From Armatimonadota bacterium (GTDB lineage Bacteria; Armatimonadota; UBA5829; DTJY01), in the NCBI GenBank assembly GCA_023511795.1, contig JAIMAU010000003.1:62001-126000 (forward strand): DNA of 64,000 nt, written 5' to 3'. A program made the translations under genes and the position numbers. Below are positions 10,501 to 45,968 of the stretch, in pieces; position 1 is the stretch's first letter, and the number at the start of each line of letters is the position of its first letter. The notes beneath the pieces are model-generated. The model was given only the letters and a program-made list of their open reading frames with translations, ran no database searches and was not told the origin of the DNA.

Positions 10501-13500
10501 CTAGTTTATTTCAACCTCTAACTTTGTTGACGCCGCATTACCAGCTTGGTCGATTGACTTAATCTCAACAGTGTGCTTTCCTTTGTCAAGAGGCTGTGTC
10601 ACTACTACGAAAGTTTCGAATTGCGTATCGAATATGCCATCAGAAGCAGCCGCCGCTATCCAATCTCCAGAGTCAACCTTAAATTGGACACCAGCGATCC
10701 CCACTACGTCGTGGAACGTCACACCCTCTACCCTCACAGACCTGTCCGCCAAGATGGTGAGAGTCTTTTTAAACGCATAAACTTTCGGAGCTTTGTTCGT
10801 TACTACGAACGGCTCAGAAATCGCTTCGATAGTAAGAGGATCTATAGGATTACTTGTTCTGTCTGAAGCTACAATTTTGATTAGATATGTTCCATCAGAA
10901 TATTTCGAAGTATCCCATGTAAAGCTTGTTTGCTTGGTTGAAGAAGTATCGGTCTTGACCTCTGCCTTGCTGTCCTCTTCTCTTGAATCTGCATTTTCTT
11001 TAACCTGCTTGCTTGCCTCGGCTATAATTGATGGCGCTTGTTCCATTATCTTGTCTTTTACATCTTGTGGGATTTCGGGATGCTTTTCAAGCTCGGCAGC
11101 CATCTCCGCAATCATTTTCTCAGGGTCATCGTTTTTTATGCTAATCGGCGCAGTTGCCTTTCGATTGAGCTCCTTTTTCTCGGACGACTGCTCTGTCGGC
11201 GAGTTGTTATTCGTTTCTAGTGCAGACTTAACTTTATCGCTCAACTTCTGCCAAGTCGCACCATTATCGGTAGAACAAAAAAGCTCATAAGTTAGAGTAT
11301 CGTTATCTGGGTCAACACCCGTCCACTTGATTGTCTTTCTCTTTGACCATTTTTCTCCTCCCTTAGGCGAGACAAACGTAACCTTTGGGCTTTGATTCTT
11401 AGGGAGAAAAACGATTTCAACATCCCTCAGCTTGGGGCTAATTGAGGCATCTTCGGTAGCAAGCGTTGCTATATACTGAATATATCTTCCTGGTGGACTG
11501 GCAATCTTTGAACCAGATGATAGGTAGGGAGATGACCACTCACTCCATGTGGAATCAGGTTCGGCCACCCACCCTGTGCGTGTTCGTAGTGTAACAGATG
11601 AACCCTTGGGAATCTCCGCAGTCCAAGTAATCACACCCCATGAGGAAGCCTGCCCACAATCGTGCACTGGCGATTCATATGTACCTTCGGTTGTCTTGCC
11701 TACATCTGCCCGGTAAATCGACCCTATATTTCCAGTGCCTGCAAATAAAGTACCATTTGAGACCGCAAGAGATAGAAATTGCACATCATGCTCGTTGCTT
11801 AAGGTGCAGACTGTTTCATCCGGAAATATCTTGAAGACGTTAGACGCATTGAGCGCATAAACATTCCCAGAAGCTTCGGCAACAAGGCCATATATTCCCG
11901 TCCCTGCTTTGTCGTAAAGTACTTTTGAAGGTGCGTTTGGCTCTAGCTTGTAAATGACACCTTTCGGCGATGTTCCCGCAAAAACCACACCACTCTCATT
12001 AACGGTAAGCGCCGTCACAGATTCTTCGGCAGCATCATAAAATACACTAACCTTGCCGGCTGGCGTAATTTTGTAAATTATCCCATTGAGACCAGTGCCA
12101 ACGTAAACATTGTCGTTTCTGTCTACAGCAAGCGAAAGAGCATGGAATTCTGAAGTATCGAGCAGGACTTCTACCTTTGAGTCAGGCGATATTCGGTAAA
12201 CCTTGCATTTATCACCAGTCGCTACATAAATGTTGCCTTTGCCATCGAGTGAAAGAGCCGATATATATTTTTCGTCAGCGTCGAAAAGCACGGTAGCCTT
12301 GCCATCGGCGGCAATTTTCAGAACCTTCCCATTTGGGGAAGTTCCAGCATAGACATTCCCAGCGGAATCCAACGCCAAGCTGTGGATTGCCAACTCATCG
12401 GAGTCATAATAAACAGACGCCGTTCCATCTGCAGCTACTTTATATATGATGCCGTTGTTACCCGTACCTGCAAAAATGTTTCCATTGCCGTCCGGAAGAA
12501 GGGACCATACGAAAGTCTCACTTGACTCAAAAAACGGGTTAATGGAACTTGCCAATACTAGAAGGTCGCCAGAAGTTGCGGCAGTGTTTACAAAGGTGCC
12601 TAGCATAAAATCGCTACGCGTGGTTTGCTTCCAAACTGATGCCGCTCTGCCCACCGGCTTCTCTTCAGTAGATGTTGTAGAAGTAGTAGGAGAAGCAGTC
12701 CCCTTAGAAGATTCTAGCTTGCTCCCCCGCATCTCGGTTTGTTTATCTGTTTTCTGGGGCTCAGACTTGGTGGAAGGCTCAGTCGTCGAGGACAGAACCC
12801 TAGTTTGAATATCACCATACGACGGTATGCCAAATTCCGAATAATTTATCTCCGACGGTTTGCCTTCACTACGCCCCGGAGCCGAACCTTCATCCTGCCC
12901 TTCCTCGCCTGCTTGAGAGCTAGGTGGCTGTGCACTTTCAGGGCCCTTTAGCGCCGTGGACTTCTTCTCGCTCTTTTCCACCTTCTGTACGGAGATTGAA
13001 AGCATTTGCATACCCTGAATGATCCAATCGGTTGAAACAACGGTTTTGATTTCGTCGCGCTCTGTGGCGAGGGCACTGGATTTTGAAGATCTCATTGCAT
13101 CGGCGATGGAGGGTGGAAGCCCAGAGAGCTTCTCTCCACCAATGCTTGGCACAAGCTTTGGAAGCGTGATCTTCGCCACCAATTCGTTGTTCTTTTCACG
13201 CTCCAGAAATTTCCTAACCATTTGCTGGAGGTTTTCAAATGCAGGCTTAGAAGGCGAAATAACCGACTGCCCACCAATAATCAAAGACCCCTGCCCGCCT
13301 TCCTCAGAGACAGCTATCGCCGTGCCAGCGCTGGCGCCGCCTCGGATTTGTATTTGGTAATTTCCCGACGGCATATTCTTCGGAAGCTCTAGCTTGATGG
13401 TTTTCGTCTGTTTTTCGCCTTTGAAAGGCTTAAGCACAACGCCAATCTCAACTGTATCGCCTGGCTTGTACTTGGCCTCCTTTAGGAATACGCGATCGAT

Positions 13501-14904
13501 TTTAGCCGTGGGATGCTTCGGTGTTATGTCTGCCCATAATTCTACTTTCTGAACTGCTACCGGATAGAAGGGGTTAAAGCGAAGCATGCTCAAAATTTGT
13601 ATAAGTTCATTTACTGATTCCATGTCTATCGAGACGGGATCGAAAAAGACATTTTCCCGTGTGATTGTACCTAATTCTTCTGCGGTTACCTGAAGTTTCA
13701 CATTTGCAGTAGCATCGCCTGGGCTGCCCCTTAATTCAAAAATTGCCTCTGCGGTTGCTGCCACAATGAAATTCATTGCAAGCAACGGATGATTGATTAC
13801 TTCGACATGAAAATCCCTCTTTCGGTTGGTTGCCTTGTCAGTGACGTGAACAATTACTGGGATGGTTTCTGCTTTTCTACCAATCTCACCAGCAATAGCC
13901 CAGGGTCTATCCTGAAAAACGCATCCAATCGTCTTAACCGGAGCCGCAATCTTACTCGAGACCATAATACTTGGAAATATATCATACACATATGCGGTAG
14001 TGAGCGGAGCAGCCATTGGGCCAATGCCGTTCATCAAGCCATCTGAGAACATTGGATGTCCGAAGGCAACTATTTTATTTCCTCGGCGATAAGTCACCGT
14101 TCCAATCCCCGTGGCATCAAGATCACCAGTAACGAAAGAAACTCCGACAGCAGCACCTGGCTGGATGTCTATATTTAGATTTGCTTTGTCAACTGCTCTG
14201 CCTGGCCCGGCGATTGGAATCACATTGAATGGCTTGAGACTTTCGCTAAGCCAAGCCATAATTCTAGGCGACATGCTACTAACCAATATATGCGTGGCAA
14301 GCGGACGCATGTACAGAACGCCTGGCTCTGGTGCCAATTGCGTGCCAGCGTAGTCAATGCTTATTTTCGAATAGGACTTCCCATTTAGAGTAATTGGCCG
14401 CTGTAGACCTGTGGTACTAAATGGAAAGAATGTGGACGGCTTGCTTGGCAATTTGGGGTCCCACGCTTCTAGCATATACTGAATTGGCGTTACCATGGCA
14501 ATGGGCTCTTTTCCAAAAGCCTCGCCGTAAGCCAACGCACCAGCAATTTTGCCGTTCAGATAAATGGGGCTTCCGCTCATTCCCTGGATTAAGTTCGCAC
14601 CTCGAGCCGTAATCGGCCCGCCTGTCATCTTAACCAAAATTAGGTCGGTGCCGAAGTTCACCCTTTTCATTATGCCAAGAACTTCAACCTGAAAGGTCTC
14701 GATTTTAGTACCTCGGAAGACCGTCTTACCATAACCCTTCATACCCGGCTTAATTTCGTCGACGAGTATTATGTTTTTTGCATCAGCCGGGTCAATAGGA
14801 GATATTAAATTATTTGCCGCATTGGCATAAAAACCAACAAACAAAGCAAATAAAATGGGGAGAATCCAGAGCCCTTTGAGAGACATGCGCCGAATCCCTT
14901 TCAT
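10501..14904 (-). CDS. Giant exported protein: S55 (SpoIVB-like) protease, beta-propeller and Ig-like domains
   Basis: 1,467 residues. A signal peptide (about 1-30, core LWILPILFALFVGFYANA) is followed by an S55-type domain (about 40-400). This has a PDZ-like IKPGMKGYGKTVFRGTKIETF, the putative catalytic serine S110 in QGMSGSPIYLNGK, and H283 in VAFGHPMFSDG. Residues about 400-780 hold a beta-rich part and a low-complexity Ser/Thr/Lys linker. At about 790-1080 come seven or so propeller blades with the repeat GNIYAGT..NGKVYKI..DGK. After that are an Ig-like module (SPKGGEKWSKRKTIKWTGVDPDNDT), a charged helical insert and a final Ig-like module. The serine motif precedes the histidine motif, the reverse of SpoIVB. 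The role is unknown; periplasmic or surface proteolysis with polymer binding is plausible. The ATG at 14886 (after AAAGGG) may be the real start. Confidence 0.8.
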   Translation of the reverse strand: MKGIRRMSLKGLWILPILFALFVGFYANAANNLISPIDPADAKNIILVDEIKPGMKGYGKTVFRGTKIETFQVEVLGIMKRVNFGTDLILVKMTGGPITARGANLIQGMSGSPIYLNGKIAGALAYGEAFGKEPIAMVTPIQYMLEAWDPKLPSKPSTFFPFSTTGLQRPITLNGKSYSKISIDYAGTQLAPEPGVLYMRPLATHILVSSMSPRIMAWLSESLKPFNVIPIAGPGRAVDKANLNIDIQPGAAVGVSFVTGDLDATGIGTVTYRRGNKIVAFGHPMFSDGLMNGIGPMAAPLTTAYVYDIFPSIMVSSKIAAPVKTIGCVFQDRPWAIAGEIGRKAETIPVIVHVTDKATNRKRDFHVEVINHPLLAMNFIVAATAEAIFELRGSPGDATANVKLQVTAEELGTITRENVFFDPVSIDMESVNELIQILSMLRFNPFYPVAVQKVELWADITPKHPTAKIDRVFLKEAKYKPGDTVEIGVVLKPFKGEKQTKTIKLELPKNMPSGNYQIQIRGGASAGTAIAVSEEGGQGSLIIGGQSVISPSKPAFENLQQMVRKFLEREKNNELVAKITLPKLVPSIGGEKLSGLPPSIADAMRSSKSSALATERDEIKTVVSTDWIIQGMQMLSISVQKVEKSEKKSTALKGPESAQPPSSQAGEEGQDEGSAPGRSEGKPSEINYSEFGIPSYGDIQTRVLSSTTEPSTKSEPQKTDKQTEMRGSKLESSKGTASPTTSTTSTEEKPVGRAASVWKQTTRSDFMLGTFVNTAATSGDLLVLASSINPFFESSETFVWSLLPDGNGNIFAGTGNNGIIYKVAADGTASVYYDSDELAIHSLALDSAGNVYAGTSPNGKVLKIAADGKATVLFDADEKYISALSLDGKGNIYVATGDKCKVYRISPDSKVEVLLDTSEFHALSLAVDRNDNVYVGTGLNGIIYKITPAGKVSVFYDAAEESVTALTVNESGVVFAGTSPKGVIYKLEPNAPSKVLYDKAGTGIYGLVAEASGNVYALNASNVFKIFPDETVCTLSNEHDVQFLSLAVSNGTLFAGTGNIGSIYRADVGKTTEGTYESPVHDCGQASSWGVITWTAEIPKGSSVTLRTRTGWVAEPDSTWSEWSSPYLSSGSKIASPPGRYIQYIATLATEDASISPKLRDVEIVFLPKNQSPKVTFVSPKGGEKWSKRKTIKWTGVDPDNDTLTYELFCSTDNGATWQKLSDKVKSALETNNNSPTEQSSEKKELNRKATAPISIKNDDPEKMIAEMAAELEKHPEIPQDVKDKIMEQAPSIIAEASKQVKENADSREEDSKAEVKTDTSSTKQTSFTWDTSKYSDGTYLIKIVASDRTSNPIDPLTIEAISEPFVVTNKAPKVYAFKKTLTILADRSVRVEGVTFHDVVGIAGVQFKVDSGDWIAAAASDGIFDTQFETFVVVTQPLDKGKHTVEIKSIDQAGNAASTKLEVEIN

Positions 14905-15125: not shown

Positions 15126-15170
15126 GCTTTCAATGAAAGCCTTTTTTGTAAAAACTTGCAAGGAGAAATC

Positions 15171-16469
15171 ATGCCTAAAACCTTTTCTTCCTTTGCACCG
15201 ATTCTAGCAATTATACTTCTCCCATTATCGGCAATGGCAGCCTCTGCGCCGACAGTAGATGTCATTCGAGTCGAAGGACCCATAGGCCCTGCCATTGCTC
15301 AATATATTCACCGAGCAATCGAAATTGCCGAGCAGGATAACGCCCAAGCGCTTATCATCAAACTGGAAACCCCTGGTGGCCTAGATGATTCGATGCGCGC
15401 CATAGTCAAAGACTTTTTCAATAGCCGTGTACCAATAGTGGTATACGTTTGGCCTCAAGGTGCACGGGCGGCTTCGGCGGGTGCGATAATAACCCTCGCC
15501 TCGCATATTGCGGCCATGAGTCCTGGAACAGCCATTGGTGCGGCACATCCGGTTAACATCGGAGGTGAGCAAGTAGACAAAACCATGGCTACTAAAATTG
15601 AAAACGACGCTGCAGCCTACGCACGCTCCATTGCGAAACGACGTGGAAGGAATGTCGAATGGGCTGAGATGATTGTGCGCAAGAGCATCTCCTCAACCGA
15701 AGAGGAAGCTATAAAAAAGAATGTCATTGACATTATTGCCAAAGATATGCGCAACCTGCTCAATCAGCTTGATGGCAGAAAAGTCAAGACAGCTGATGGA
15801 ATGCATACCATAAACACCAAAGGTGCAACTTTAAAGGAGATTGCGCCTTCAATTCGTGAAAAGTTTCTCCATATAATAAGCAACCCTAATGTCGCTTATA
15901 TCCTCATGCTAATAGCAGTATATGGAATTATTTTCGAGTTGAACAATCCCGGCTCAATATTCCCTGGAGTAATCGGCGGCATCGCCCTTTTACTGGCTTT
16001 ATACTCGTTTGCCATTCTGCCAATCAACCTAACAGGAGTTTTGCTAATCGCCTTCGGGGTAATCCTTTTTGTAACAGATCTCTTTGTTCCAGGACACGGA
16101 ATACTCACAGTAGGAGGGATTATTGCGTTTATTATAGGATCTTTAATCCTTTTTGAAACCAGAACGCCCGCCATGCGAATCTCGATGACGCTTGTAATAA
16201 CAATGACAATTCTGACTGCTGGATTCTTCTTGTTTGCAGTAGGTGCAGGCGCACGCGCTCAAAAACTCAAAGTAGTTACAGGTGCTGAAAACTTAGTTGG
16301 CCAGGTGGTGGAAGCCAGAACCGACCTTAATCCTAAGGGCAAAGTATTTATCGAAGGTGAATACTGGAATGCTATTGCTGAAGGCGAGCCAGTAAAAAAG
16401 GGGGAAAGGGTACGAATAATTGCAGTTGATAAATTAACGCTCAGGGTTAGAAAGGAGAACCAGCTATGA
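15171..16469 (+). CDS. NfeD-family membrane serine protease (ClpP-like, long form)
   Basis: 432 residues from this ATG, chosen because AAGGAG lies six bases upstream; the frame opens earlier at a TTG. A signal peptide (about 1-22) is followed by a ClpP-fold protease domain to about 210 with IKLETPGGLDDSMRAIVKDF, the catalytic serine in GARAASAGAIITLASH, and the lysine in MIVRKSISSTEEEA, a Ser-Lys dyad. About four to five membrane helices (about 230-360) and a C-terminal OB-fold (about 365-432, LVGQVVEARTDLNPKGKVFIEGEYW) complete the long NfeD architecture. In Pyrococcus the homologue 1510-N cleaves stomatin. Here the slipin gene follows with an ATGA overlap, so the two probably form one membrane quality-control unit. 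Confidence 0.92.
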   Translation: MPKTFSSFAPILAIILLPLSAMAASAPTVDVIRVEGPIGPAIAQYIHRAIEIAEQDNAQALIIKLETPGGLDDSMRAIVKDFFNSRVPIVVYVWPQGARAASAGAIITLASHIAAMSPGTAIGAAHPVNIGGEQVDKTMATKIENDAAAYARSIAKRRGRNVEWAEMIVRKSISSTEEEAIKKNVIDIIAKDMRNLLNQLDGRKVKTADGMHTINTKGATLKEIAPSIREKFLHIISNPNVAYILMLIAVYGIIFELNNPGSIFPGVIGGIALLLALYSFAILPINLTGVLLIAFGVILFVTDLFVPGHGILTVGGIIAFIIGSLILFETRTPAMRISMTLVITMTILTAGFFLFAVGAGARAQKLKVVTGAENLVGQVVEARTDLNPKGKVFIEGEYWNAIAEGEPVKKGERVRIIAVDKLTLRVRKENQL

Positions 16470-17239
16470 CAGCAGATGTAACGATTACGGTAATAATTGT
16501 CGCACTTTTCTTTTTTGGTGCAATAGTAATGCCTTCTGCAGTAAGGGTCATCAAAGAATACGAACGAGGAGTTGTCCTCAGGTGGGGACGCTTCAGCCAT
16601 GTAAAATTGCCTGGCTTACGATTTATTATTCCATTTGTAGACACTCTGTTTCGTATTGACCTGCGCATTGTGACGATGGACGTGCCCAAGCAGGAGATGA
16701 TGACGAGGGATAATGTTCCAGTCACCGTTGATGCAGTTGTCTACTTTCGCGTTGTAAATGCTCAAGATGCCGTTTTGAAGATTGAAAATTTTGTAAAAGC
16801 GACGGCTCTAATTGCCCAAACAACCCTTCGAAGCACAGTCGGTCAAGCAATGCTCGACGAGCTCCTATCCGAACGCGAAAAGATAAACGAACACCTTCAA
16901 ACAGTCATCGACGAACAAACCGAGCCATGGGGTGTCAAGGTTACGAGCGTCGAGATTAGAGATGTTATCCTACCCGACGGCATGAAGCGCGCGATGGCAA
17001 AGCAAGCGGAGACTGAACGCGAGCGCCGCGCAAAGATCATCAATGCAGAAGGCGAATTCCAAGCAGCTGAGAAATTGGCTCAAGCTGCGGCGATAATTAG
17101 CAAGGAGCCTGCAGCGATCCAGCTTAGGTTCCTTCAGACACTTACTGAGGTTGCGAGTGAACATAATAGCACAACCATTTTCCCAGTGCCAATAGATTTA
17201 TTCGAGCCTTTTATTAAGAACTTAAAAGAAAAGAAATAG
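16466..17239 (+). CDS. Slipin (stomatin/SPFH-family membrane scaffold)
   Basis: 257 residues. One N-terminal membrane helix (about 5-27) is followed by an SPFH/band-7 domain (VIKEYERGVVLRWGRF, LPGLRFIIPFVDTLFRIDLR, VDAVVYFRVVNAQDAV) and a helical, coiled-coil C-terminal part (KQAETERERRAKIINAEGEFQAAEKL). Slipins oligomerise and organise membrane microdomains. The start ATG overlaps the nfeD stop (ATGA), the classic nfeD-slipin pairing, where the protease is thought to process or regulate the slipin. No other gene follows closely; a structured region begins about 35 bases downstream. Confidence 0.93.
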   Translation: MTADVTITVIIVALFFFGAIVMPSAVRVIKEYERGVVLRWGRFSHVKLPGLRFIIPFVDTLFRIDLRIVTMDVPKQEMMTRDNVPVTVDAVVYFRVVNAQDAVLKIENFVKATALIAQTTLRSTVGQAMLDELLSEREKINEHLQTVIDEQTEPWGVKVTSVEIRDVILPDGMKRAMAKQAETERERRAKIINAEGEFQAAEKLAQAAAIISKEPAAIQLRFLQTLTEVASEHNSTTIFPVPIDLFEPFIKNLKEKK

Positions 17240-17273: not shown

Positions 17274-17408
17274 TTAAATATGCTTGTTTTTACAAACCAG
17301 CATATTTAACCCCTGAAGGCTTCTAATCTGCCTGCCATAATCAGTATTAGCTCAGGCACGCGGCAAGCAGACCTCCGAGAAGGTCGTTGCAGAGGCGGAC
17401 CTGATTAT
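17274..17408 (+). ncRNA. Candidate structured RNA of unknown class
   Basis: A gene-free stretch with dense potential structure. A hairpin GTTAAATATGCT (17274-17285) / AGCATATTTAAC (17299-17310) is followed by GACCT (17370-17374) / AGGTC (17381-17385) around a CCGAGA loop, inside GCAA (17363-17366) / TTGC (17387-17390). Two further helices cross each other: TCTGCCT (17327-17333) with AGGCGGA (17393-17399, one G-U), and ATAATCAG (17337-17344) with CTGATTAT (17401-17408). They form either a pseudoknot or two alternative folds. A terminator-like hairpin follows at 17412. It could be a riboswitch-like element, a small RNA or a 3' UTR of the slipin operon. I could not match it to a known class. Confidence 0.35.
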
Positions 17409-17411
17409 TCA

Positions 17412-17458
17412 AAAGGAGCGCTAGCAGACTACATCAGTTTCAGCCAGCGCTCCTTTTT
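17412..17458 (+). terminator. Intrinsic terminator after the structured region
   Basis: A perfect 11-base stem AAAGGAGCGCT (17412-17422) / AGCGCTCCTTT (17446-17456) with a 23-base loop, ending in a T5 run. It ends transcription from the left just before the separate promoter at 17480. Confidence 0.7.
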
Positions 17459-17479
17459 GACATCCACTCCACCAAAGGC

Positions 17480-17508
17480 TTGACACCTCGTTCAATTTTC
17501 GCTATTCT
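17480..17508 (+). promoter_or_regulatory. Consensus promoter giving a leaderless mRNA
   Basis: TTGACA (17480-17485), exactly 17 bases, TATTCT (17503-17508). The next six bases lead directly into the ATG at 17515, the position where transcription should start (+1 seven bases after the end of the -10). There is no room for a Shine-Dalgarno, so the message should begin at or next to the start codon. Confidence 0.65.
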
Positions 17509-17514
17509 CAGCGC

Positions 17515-19578
17515 ATGAGCAACGAACTAAGAGAAGCAATCCAAGCTGGGAGGATCCTCCGCAATTCCTGGCCCCTTTGTTTAAGAGAACATGTTAATCT
17601 CTATATTGGCAGTGGCCGTGCTGGTGCATGCTTTGATGCATATGGCTTGATGAACAATGGATTTCGCGGGAAGCCATCCGAGACAATAAGCAACACGCGC
17701 CTAATGCATGCTGACCACTGGCATCGAGGCGCATGGGGGCTTGACTACTGGCTACCGGTCGCCCGCATTGCATGGGCAACTACACCACATGAACCGCCGT
17801 TGAAGTATCGGCAAGAACTCGACATTTATGAAGGCAGGCTTCGAACGCAAATATGCCGGCCAAGCCTGCGATATGACATCGCCTCCTATTTTCATCCCTA
17901 CCGCCGAGATCTTCTCGCCATAGACTTGCGATTTGAATCTATTGGAAAGCAAATACCAGATATAATCGTATCGCCTGAGACGGACGTCCATACCCACTAC
18001 AACCAACATCTGATTGGGAAAGCACAAGGCATAATCTTTGATTCGGAAGCAAAGAGGTGGATTTGCCGCATAAAAGTAGGCAACGCAGACAGCTTCTTAT
18101 GCTTGCGGATTATTAGCACCCAAGGGGATTGCCATATCAAAGCCGGCACCGACGGCTTGAATATTAGATTTGAAGGGGAAAGTGGAAGTCACTTATTGTT
18201 AGTTGGCGTCGGCGGCGCTCACCGTAAGCAAGAAATTGAGCACGAACTTGATTCGATTCGCTCGCCTGAGCAATTCGCCGCAGAAGCAGCGCAAGCCTGG
18301 CATAGGCGATGGGGCGATGCATTTATAAACATTCCTGTGCCGCAGTACCAAGCACTTTGGGCAAGGTCCTTATTCTATGTGTTGTCAAGCTATGCGCCAG
18401 ATGTTCGAGCCCCAGCACCCCCGAACGGATGGTCTGGTAACTGTTGGCCATTTGGATTCCCACAGGATCTCTCATTTATTCACCCTGCCCTCCTAAGACT
18501 AGGACATCTCGACATTGCCCGCTCGTGGGTTGAATTCTACCGCCAAAGGCTTCAGAACATGCAGGAGTATACTAGGAGGGTTTACGGCGCCGAGGGTGCA
18601 ATGTGGGCATGGGAATTCCCAATCGGGCCTGATTCAAAACTCTTAAGCGACGGCTACCCAAACTATTGCCAATTTGAAATCCACAACGCCGCGTACCCAG
18701 CAAGAATGGCTCGTGAAGCTGCCATGCATATTCGAAATCAAGAGTGGACATTAGAGGTAGCCTGGCCTATTGTCAAAGAATCGGCGCGGTTCTTCGGCTC
18801 AATCCTAAAACCAGAAGATGATAGGACTTGGGGCATCCAAATCAAACCCTCGATGGGGCAGGATGAAATGGGCGGAATAAATGCTAAAAACTACCTTTGC
18901 GCTCTTTTTAGCGCTCATTATGCGCTCAAGATTGCACTAGAAATGGCTGAGGAACTTGACCAGCACGAACCCGAGTTTGACCGCTGGAAACAGATTCTCA
19001 CCGATGGACTTGCTTTCAAGCGCCTATATGATGAAACATCTGGGGTATGTGCTACTTGCGAAGGACAATCAGGAAGCGAGCAAATAGGCAAAGAAAAACA
19101 TCCTGTCCAGCTCAACCCACTAATTTTCCTACCAATGCGACAGGTGGATGACCATGTGCTTCGTGCCTACGAACGACGTTACGATATCTGTGCCGGAGTT
19201 AGAGAGAACATATATTACGGGTGGACACTTGCCGCATATCTCCTCGCCGCGTCACACATGAAGGATGCCGATGGTTTGCTCCACGAGCTTGGCCAATTCC
19301 TACGGGGAAAATATGTTGACCCAGATTGGATTCAGATATACGAAACCTCAGGAGCAGTCGGAAGTCCTTTCTACGTCACCAGCCACGGCCTTTACCTCCA
19401 AGCACTTAACGATGCCCTGGTTTCCGACTACTGGGGGGAGACCCAGATTGGAGCATCATGCCCCAAGGACTGGATTGATGTATCCTTCCACCGTCTTCGC
19501 ACGGCAGATGGGTGCATTCATTCCGGCCAGAAAGTGGGTGAGGACTGGAAAGTGTCCACAGAGGAACGCCCAGTATGA
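17515..19578 (+). CDS. Glycosidase-like protein with (alpha/alpha)6 barrel
   Basis: 687 residues, no signal peptide. An N-terminal beta-sandwich (about 1-270; NLYIGSGRAGACFDAYG, SYFHPYRRDLLAIDLRFES) precedes an (alpha/alpha)6-barrel (about 280-640). The barrel carries ALWARSLFYVLSSYAPD, NCWPFGFPQDLSFIHPALLRLGH, MWAWEFPIGPD, GQDEMGGINAKNYLCA and the late EISGAVG-like ETSGAVGSPFYVTSHG. This layout is that of GH65/GH95-type enzymes, cytoplasmic phosphorylases or glycosidases. The exact family and substrate are not certain. The mRNA appears leaderless. The next gene begins within its stop (ATGA), so the two are coupled; that partner carries an export signal. Confidence 0.65.
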   Translation: MSNELREAIQAGRILRNSWPLCLREHVNLYIGSGRAGACFDAYGLMNNGFRGKPSETISNTRLMHADHWHRGAWGLDYWLPVARIAWATTPHEPPLKYRQELDIYEGRLRTQICRPSLRYDIASYFHPYRRDLLAIDLRFESIGKQIPDIIVSPETDVHTHYNQHLIGKAQGIIFDSEAKRWICRIKVGNADSFLCLRIISTQGDCHIKAGTDGLNIRFEGESGSHLLLVGVGGAHRKQEIEHELDSIRSPEQFAAEAAQAWHRRWGDAFINIPVPQYQALWARSLFYVLSSYAPDVRAPAPPNGWSGNCWPFGFPQDLSFIHPALLRLGHLDIARSWVEFYRQRLQNMQEYTRRVYGAEGAMWAWEFPIGPDSKLLSDGYPNYCQFEIHNAAYPARMAREAAMHIRNQEWTLEVAWPIVKESARFFGSILKPEDDRTWGIQIKPSMGQDEMGGINAKNYLCALFSAHYALKIALEMAEELDQHEPEFDRWKQILTDGLAFKRLYDETSGVCATCEGQSGSEQIGKEKHPVQLNPLIFLPMRQVDDHVLRAYERRYDICAGVRENIYYGWTLAAYLLAASHMKDADGLLHELGQFLRGKYVDPDWIQIYETSGAVGSPFYVTSHGLYLQALNDALVSDYWGETQIGASCPKDWIDVSFHRLRTADGCIHSGQKVGEDWKVSTEERPV

Positions 19579-45730: not shown

Positions 45731-45761
45731 CTTTGCCTCCGAAGACGGTCGAAAGCTGCGA

Positions 45762-45945
45762 AACAGGCAGGTCTTCTGACTTACGGATCAACCGAGTGCC
45801 GGCTCCTTCCCATCCCGATTCCTTCGGAACAGTGGTTTGCGCCGGCCTCGTCCCCGATTACAGCGGCGGGCCCGTGACGGACTTTCACCGTCTTCCCTCT
45901 TAGGTGCCCTTCTGTTTGTAACAGACAAGGCACAACCTGCTCGCA
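45762..45945 (-). ncRNA. Cobalamin riboswitch
   Basis: Read on the minus strand, the segment contains the core elements of the cobalamin aptamer in order: P1 5' strand GCAGGT, the GGGAAGACGGTGAAAGTCC block, CCCGCCGCTGTAATCGGGG, CCACTG with GGGATGGGAAGG, GATCCGTAAGTC and the 3' P1 strand AGTCAGAAGACCTGCC. All spacing is as in AdoCbl-type switches. It lies between a near-consensus promoter and the pseudopilin-like gene. The 9-base segment GAAGACGGT (45887-45895) is perfectly complementary to ACCGTCTTC (45741-45749) placed right before the GGAGG ribosome binding site, and TGCCT after P1 can pair with AGGCA covering that site, so translational control is likely. Confidence 0.95.
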
Positions 45946-45968
45946 AGCATATTCAGTTGTCAGCCGTA

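Follow-up and report, generated by a model that had tools for sequence, protein, structure and literature searches.

The intergenic stretch behind a slipin gene of an Armatimonadota bacterium very probably makes its own small folded RNA, with its own start and stop signals, and the comparative data are best read as pointing to a new small regulatory RNA that is confined to this lineage, is independently transcribed, and is absent from Rfam. The window analyzed here, a stretch of 64,000 nucleotides, comes from contig 3 of a genome assembly (G000) of 35 contigs that is 97.6% complete. Within it, the predicted small RNA occupies positions 17349 to 17460 of the forward strand, with the 5' end placed from the spacing of a -10-like block and the 5' edge of helix P1 and the 3' end placed from the terminator, and we consider it likely that this segment of about 110 nt is independently transcribed and noncoding. 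Sequence comparison shows that promoter-like blocks at fixed spacing, a covarying 53-nt core, and a terminator are kept as a unit in seven genomes. The first-pass annotation of this DNA had proposed a structured RNA from 17274 to 17458; the RNA predicted here is shorter.

Genomic setting of the predicted RNA

The upstream neighbor is the slipin (SPFH/Band 7) gene at 16466 to 17239 on the forward strand (PF01145, E value of 6.6e-42), which is preceded by nfeD at 15156 to 16469, a gene that matched NfeD families. The downstream neighbor, at 17515 to 19578 on the same strand, encodes a protein of 687 amino acids without a Pfam match, and the gap between slipin and this gene is 275 bases. An ordinary promoter-like TTGACA-17-TATTCT of the 687-amino-acid gene was found at 17480 to 17508, which lies beyond the terminator of the RNA and bears out the earlier proposal that the downstream gene has its own promoter there. 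The 687-amino-acid protein is present in all four family f1 genomes that carry the RNA, with distant copies in G017 and G024, and was not found in G002, an f1 genome in which the RNA was also not found by the model searches described below. Its mRNA is probably leaderless in the window, and GGAGG precedes the start in G003. Elsewhere in the window, the gene at 10501 to 14904 on the reverse strand encodes a 1,467-amino-acid protein that contains propeller-like repeats and a peptidase S55 domain of the SpoIVB type, and a Cobalamin riboswitch (Rfam RF00174, 118.7 bits) lies at 45749 to 45955, also on the reverse strand.

The segment from 17349 to 17460 folded with a z score of -4.53, and none of 200 shuffled sequences folded as well. 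Its counterparts in G003 and G004 gave z scores of -2.95 and -5.18 (0 of 200 shuffles each), and the whole region delimited by the first-pass annotation gave -4.95 (0 of 200). The complement of that region folded equally well relative to shuffles, and the RNA was assigned to the forward strand because in G003 the T's after the terminator stem are on that strand only, as judged by eye.

Homologues in other genomes

Homologues of the RNA were found in 7 of the 28 genomes of the class (G000, G001, G003, G004, G018, G020, and G024), spanning three families (f1, f4, and f5), and their core helices covary, as a search for conserved copies with compensatory changes had been meant to reveal. At the DNA level, a search of 41 genomes gave matches at an E value of 1 in 27 of them, and the only strong ones besides the window itself were in G001, with 97% identity over the whole stretch, and in G003, with 79% identity over 17332 to 17403 (E value of 2.8e-9) between the same two genes as in the window. 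Between G000 and G003, identity was 9/9 in the -10-like block TGCCATAAT and 43/53 in the core, compared to 2/7 between the -10 and +1, 36/93 in the upstream flank, and 4/21 behind the terminator. The core and the -10-like block are thus conserved, and the flanks are not. No reading frame in the RNA was seen by eye to be conserved among the homologues.

Further homologues were identified with three models, for which the E values are rough since the calibration was short: a covariance model of the core built from three sequences (R1), the core alone (R2), and the block, core, and terminator together (R3). The R1 match in G004 was weak (E value of 0.123) and was backed by the presence of TGCCATAAT 20 nt upstream and of a terminator behind it. 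Among the 28 class genomes, R3 detected the RNA of G020 at 2.1e-5, and when it was applied to 15 loci with a close slipin (L040 to L054, 62 kb), it detected those of G020 (3.4e-7), G024 (2.2e-6), and G018 (3.6e-5), each of which lies directly behind slipin. With R2, neither G018 nor G024 was found at an E value of 1, and G020 scored 17.5 bits (E value of 0.037 in 21 kb). The RNA is therefore directly behind slipin in six genomes, which are 6 of the 18 examined genomes with a close slipin, and elsewhere in G004. The other 12 close-slipin loci, searched without filters, yielded ten matches up to an E value of 5, the best at 13.2 bits and 0.051, and none was accepted. The whole-genome search scores only part of the candidates and missed G018 and G024, so the absence of the RNA elsewhere is not proved.

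The setting in G004 is different. No slipin was found there at an E value of 1e-30, and since this assembly is 97% complete and in about 200 contigs, the gene could be missing from it. The RNA adjoins an open reading frame (ORF) whose translation reads like a small VOC-type protein, an ORF diverges from the RNA upstream, and the orthologue of the 687-amino-acid gene is on a different contig than the RNA.

Several groups of matches were not counted. R1 matches in 6 of 10 genomes, and matches in 8 of 12 genomes in another search, had no NGCNATAAT block, the family pattern of TGCCATAAT, at the right distance as judged by eye, and one such match falls in what reads as a groEL gene. R3 matches in G014 (21.7 bits) and G010 (16.2 bits) are not on the contigs that carry the slipin matches of these genomes, and matches on the opposite strand, in that search and in a further one, coincide with the palindromic terminator. 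A 27-base core pattern allowing up to three mismatches was present in 19 of the 28 genomes, approximately the same as for a backward control, and exact matches occurred only in G000, G001, G003, and G004. Of 291 genomes, 17 (13 outside f1) contained a pattern of block plus core, and R3, run on 14 of the 15 loci of those 13 (all but L150), found nothing. At 11 loci with distant slipin relatives, R3 gave only two partial matches (9.7 bits, E value of 0.67). A phage or plasmid element was not supported, as there was no blastn match at an E value of 0.1 in phage or plasmid collections, and the single pattern match in a viral contig was without the upstream block.

A second possible small RNA was observed behind the first in G018 (L042:2480-2600, forward strand) and in G020 (L045:924-985, reverse strand). 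It gave sub-threshold matches of 35.1 and 28.7 bits to the Rfam family RF02278, "Betaproteobacteria toxic small RNA," for which the cut-off is 50. Upstream of it in G018 is TTGGCACGCTTTTTGCA, which we take to resemble a sigma-54 promoter, and a terminator-like hairpin with a T-run follows.

Covariation in the structured core

The conserved core, from 17352 to 17404, is 53 nt long and consists of three helices: P1 (17352-17356/17400-17404), P3 (17363-17366/17387-17390), and P4 (17370-17374/17381-17385). P4 is the nested stem, GACCT/AGGTC, that the first-pass annotation had noted around a CCGAGA loop, and it closes this hexaloop at 17375 to 17380. A fourth, short helix, P2 (CGC/GCG), is not complete in G004. 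In a structural alignment made by hand, and thereby fitted to the structure, of the six distinct homologues (G001 was left out, its core being identical to that of G000), 77 of the 84 pair cells of P1, P3, and P4 were kept, a count reached by none of 2,000 shuffles, and 8 of the 14 pairs were changed on both sides, which was equaled in 2 of 2,000. All three helices contained compensatory changes. When the sequences were instead aligned with MAFFT without structure, 92.9% of the 56 cells of the eight P3 and P4 pairs were paired and four pairs were changed on both sides, with 0 and 8 of 500 shuffles, respectively, as good, and at most 50% of cells were paired when the alignment was slid. From that same alignment, RNAalifold proposed P1, P3, and P4 by itself. 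Covariation within f1 alone was weak (two pairs; 49 of 500 shuffles as good). The folding of the core alone (17349 to 17410) was modest, with a z score of -1.84 and 9 of 200 shuffles as good, and for the four sequences folded in this way the counts were 9, 4, 8, and 9 of 200.

Unpaired positions are conserved as well. The hexaloop reads CCGAGA, CUAAGA, CCACAA, CUGAGA, CUGAGA, and CGGAGU in the six distinct sequences, so that its first C is present in 6/6 and GAG in 4/6, and GCR in the internal loop is present in 5/6. An anti-Shine-Dalgarno loop (ACCUCC in G000) was considered and rejected, as it is not retained in the sequences of f4 and f5.

Terminator and the slipin 3' end

The putative intrinsic terminator, from 17411 to 17458 on the forward strand, has a stem of 17411-17422/17446-17457 followed by T's, in agreement with the terminator hairpin described earlier. 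In the four f1 sequences, 40 of the 40 cells of its 10-pair stem were kept and three pairs were compensated; 2 of 500 shuffles were as good for the cells kept and 90 of 500 for the three compensated pairs. The covarying stem together with the T's in f1 thus has the expected form of an intrinsic terminator, although a simple terminator scan of the window did not list it. The terminator of G004 is of a different sequence and also lies behind the core, and that of G020 has a poor T-run.

A 12-bp A+T-rich hairpin (17273-17284/17299-17310, forward strand) is the element with which the earlier proposal began, and it was confirmed when a G-C pair one base outside the original start was counted. It pairs 10/11 in G001, with one pair broken, and has no sequence counterpart in G003 or G004; it probably belongs to the 3' end of slipin and not to the RNA. 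By eye, a hairpin and T-run belonging to slipin precede the RNA in G003 and G024, and in G018 the slipin hairpin carries only three T's.

Promoter-like blocks upstream of the core

Three blocks precede the RNA on the forward strand. The -10-like block TGCCATAAT, at 17333 to 17341, is identical in G000, G001, G003, and G004, and its variants are GGCGATAAT in G020, CGCCATAAT in G024, and GGCAATAAT in G018; for the last three genomes this conservation is partly circular, since TGCCATAAT is part of the model that detected them. In all six distinct sequences, ATAAT sits 11 to 12 nt before the NAGG of P1 (CGGG in G004), and the stretch between the two is variable. The -35-like block, CTGAA at 17313 to 17317, follows the family pattern CTRWR, with CTGAA, CTGTG, CTAAT, CTAAA, CTATA, and CTAAA in the six homologues. 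It was the best conserved 5-mer upstream, 20 to 21 nt before the NGCNATAAT block, in a search in which no motif was fixed beforehand and a shift of one was allowed, and 2 of 1,500 shuffles were as good; in a control without G020, the best window moved by one and 10 of 1,500 shuffles were as good. The third block is a T-tract, GTTTTT at 17286 to 17291, the spacing of which is conserved and which may act as an UP element or may belong to the slipin 3' end. GTTTT lies 36 to 37 nt before the NGCNATAAT block in five homologues (0 of 3,000 shuffles as good with G000 left out). In G000 it lies 47 nt before the block, which is 11 bp, or one helical turn, farther out. On all six sequences without shifts, the T-tract was the best 5-mer (1 of 1,000 shuffles as good). 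The shuffles for all of these blocks ignore relatedness, which is real here, as three of the six sequences come from f1 and two from f5; G001 was dropped from these tests, from the sigma-factor comparison below, and from the test on the hand alignment because its core is identical to that of G000 and its promoter nearly so. The -35-like block and the T-tract are absent from models R1 to R3.

An excerpt of PMC2613000 places UP elements at -60 to -40, a range that includes the T-tract at about -50, and also quotes that no clear extended -10 promoters are known that have neither a -35 match nor an activator site. The T-tract is found in G004 too, where slipin was not detected at the threshold given above, and it follows the hairpin behind slipin in G003 and G024, where it may serve as the slipin terminator. 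Taken together, these blocks suggest that the RNA has its own promoter at a fixed distance.

This promoter-like arrangement was compared to those of two sigma factors. The FliA (sigma-28) consensus is given in an excerpt of PMC7286023 as TAAAGTTT-N11-GCCGATAA. Upstream of the RNA, a TAAA-like element stands 15 to 16 nt before NGCNATAA; its matches sum to 18/24 over the six sequences versus a shuffled mean of 9.95 (0 of 3,000), for a motif that was chosen after the data were seen. Against TAAA-N15-GCCGATAA, the -10 part matches at 5 to 7 of 8 positions. The likeness is incomplete: the second base of the -10 is G and not C, TAAA is exact in only 2/6 (G020 and G024), and G003 matches at 1/4. An extended -10 sigma-70 element (TGnTATAAT) is matched by TGCCATAAT at 7/8 positions in f1, but beyond f1 neither the T of TGn nor the first -10 base is conserved, and TTGACA scored 16 versus 14.4 expected, with 895 of 3,000 shuffles as good. 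The -35/-10 pattern therefore looks, from its sequence, more like sigma-28 than sigma-70.

Crossing helices proposed from the single sequence

Two crossing helices had been proposed to form a pseudoknot or to alternate. Both exist letter for letter, TCTGCCT/AGGCGGA at 17327-17333/17393-17399 and ATAATCAG/CTGATTAT at 17337-17344/17401-17408, but they are not conserved, and their crossing is at the level of chance. In dinucleotide shuffles of the region, crossing pairs of helices of at least 7 bp arose in 260 of 300 and of at least 8 bp in 98 of 300; a helix of at least 11 bp arose in 32 of 300, and the region itself holds two. The first helix pairs 6/7 in G001, 5/7 in G003, and 3/7 in G004, and the second 8/8, 2/8, and 3/8, respectively. 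Judged by this pairing, the first helix is no longer intact in the sister species G001, and both are lost in G003 and G004. Their 5' arms (17327-17333 and 17337-17344) overlap the -10-like block. A conserved pseudoknot or pair of alternating helices was rejected on the grounds that such crossings are common in shuffles and the helices are lost in relatives. What looks like a "crossing helix" in a single sequence can thus consist of promoter DNA and accidental pairing, and only a comparison exposes this.

A separate complementarity was observed between 17327 to 17336, just upstream of the -10, and 17362 to 17371 in the core (9/10 in G000 and 10/11 in G003). The fractions of shuffles as good were marginal (P values of 0.137 in G000, 0.036 in G001, 0.014 in G003, and 0.597 in G004). 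If real, it would favor a longer RNA and so counts against the reading of about 110 nt.

Comparison to known RNA classes

The claim that the RNA stands alone, has a terminator of its own, and is unknown to Rfam was supported by the covarying homologues and by the Rfam searches. Rfam 15 gave no match at the RNA locus at its cut-offs, and at E values up to 10 five sub-threshold matches touched the region, the best at 19.5 bits against a cut-off of 82. There was no match at an E value of 1 on the RNAs of G003 and G004 or on those of G018, G020, and G024, beside which four sub-threshold matches were found. Like 6S RNA (RF00013) and the bacterial small SRP RNA (RF00169), the predicted RNA would be a short, stable, stand-alone RNA, but these two identities were rejected, as both RNAs were found elsewhere above cut-off in 5/5 family genomes and neither matched here. 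The closer likeness is to intergenic, intrinsically terminated small RNAs of the Hfq-associated kind, with which it shares promoter-like blocks, a length of about 110 nt, a stem-loop core, a terminator, and an encoded Hfq, and from which it differs in that almost no unpaired 5' end is predicted. In the open-access literature, searches for Armatimonadetes with small RNA and noncoding RNA and for Armatimonadota with riboswitch returned no paper, and a search for slipin, NfeD, and small RNA returned nothing related by title.

Function and alternative explanations

The RNA probably acts in trans as a small regulatory RNA. This reading draws on its being a unit separate from slipin, the differing next genes, the lack of a conserved reading frame, its distinctness from 6S and SRP RNA, and the presence of Hfq, which was found in 5/5 family genomes. 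In the mechanism that we envisage, RNA polymerase would start near 17349, the 5' end of the transcript would be sealed into P1 after only about three free nucleotides, and transcription would end in the T-run near 17460. The released RNA would then act in trans, which is the least certain step. Recognition by an mRNA or a protein would be through the conserved unpaired letters of the hexaloop and internal loop, and Hfq could bind at the U-tail.

Whether the partner would be an mRNA or a protein divides this reading. That the same stand-alone RNA binds a protein, as a sponge or scaffold, instead of base pairing is a serious possibility, to which we give somewhat less than even weight. The conserved unpaired letters of the folded core and the small number of unpaired 5' nucleotides predicted are consistent with it, as is the failure to find target pairing at the downstream gene start. 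There, pairing with the start of the 687-amino-acid gene in G000 ranked 28 of 45 in the window and was not supported, with 199 of 500 shuffled targets as good, and the corresponding counts of 10 of 500 in G003 and 62 of 500 in G004 were moderate to weak. Against protein binding, Hfq is present and allows a base-pairing mode, and the conservation of the unpaired letters comes from only six distinct sequences.

The usual position behind slipin points to another possible origin for the RNA, as a processed 3' untranslated product of the nfeD-slipin mRNA, in which read-through would release the core or leave it protecting the 3' end. The RNA is directly behind slipin in six of the seven genomes that carry it, and the G000 hairpin behind slipin is without a clean T-run. 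We nevertheless regard this origin as rather unlikely: G004 has the RNA without a detected slipin and with an ORF diverging upstream, in G003 and G024 a separate slipin hairpin with a T-run comes ahead of the RNA, and the promoter-like blocks are conserved at fixed spacing. Synteny with slipin is conserved, yet the RNA looks like a separate unit.

It is very unlikely that the conserved element works as DNA, as a two-way terminator or protein-binding site, and not as a functional RNA. The terminator stem is palindromic, with T's after it on both strands in G000, and inverted repeats between the upstream stretch and the core exist, but compensatory changes occur in all three core helices, and for P3 and P4 also on the unfitted alignment, the T's are on one strand only in G003, and the setting in G004 is different. 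Finally, the suggestion that the RNA is aptamer-like, so that the terminator would be the expression platform of a cis-regulatory riboswitch or attenuator controlling the downstream gene, draws on the terminator immediately after a structured core and is highly improbable, because the potentially alternating helices are not conserved and have their 5' arms within or overlapping promoter-like DNA, the downstream gene has its promoter-like site beyond the terminator (as do, by eye, its orthologues in G003 and G004, the latter on another contig than the RNA), and the next ORF differs among homologues and is convergent in G004, G018, and G024, so that the RNA is not a riboswitch of the next gene; no known aptamer class was matched in Rfam 15, where a new class would not match.

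The preferred reading of an independently transcribed regulatory RNA may be extended, speculatively and at rather long odds, to a new RNA class of this Armatimonadota class, marked by a hexaloop that is mostly C-N-G-A-G-N and a GCR internal loop, transcribed with a sigma-28-like sigma factor and an upstream element, and serving as a regulator, by protein binding or base pairing, with ties to the physiology of the membrane or of motility. Such a link to the membrane or motility, if true, would explain the lasting neighborhood of the RNA with nfeD and slipin. A conserved RNA unknown to Rfam provides a concrete candidate in a phylum whose regulatory RNAs seem to have been little studied.
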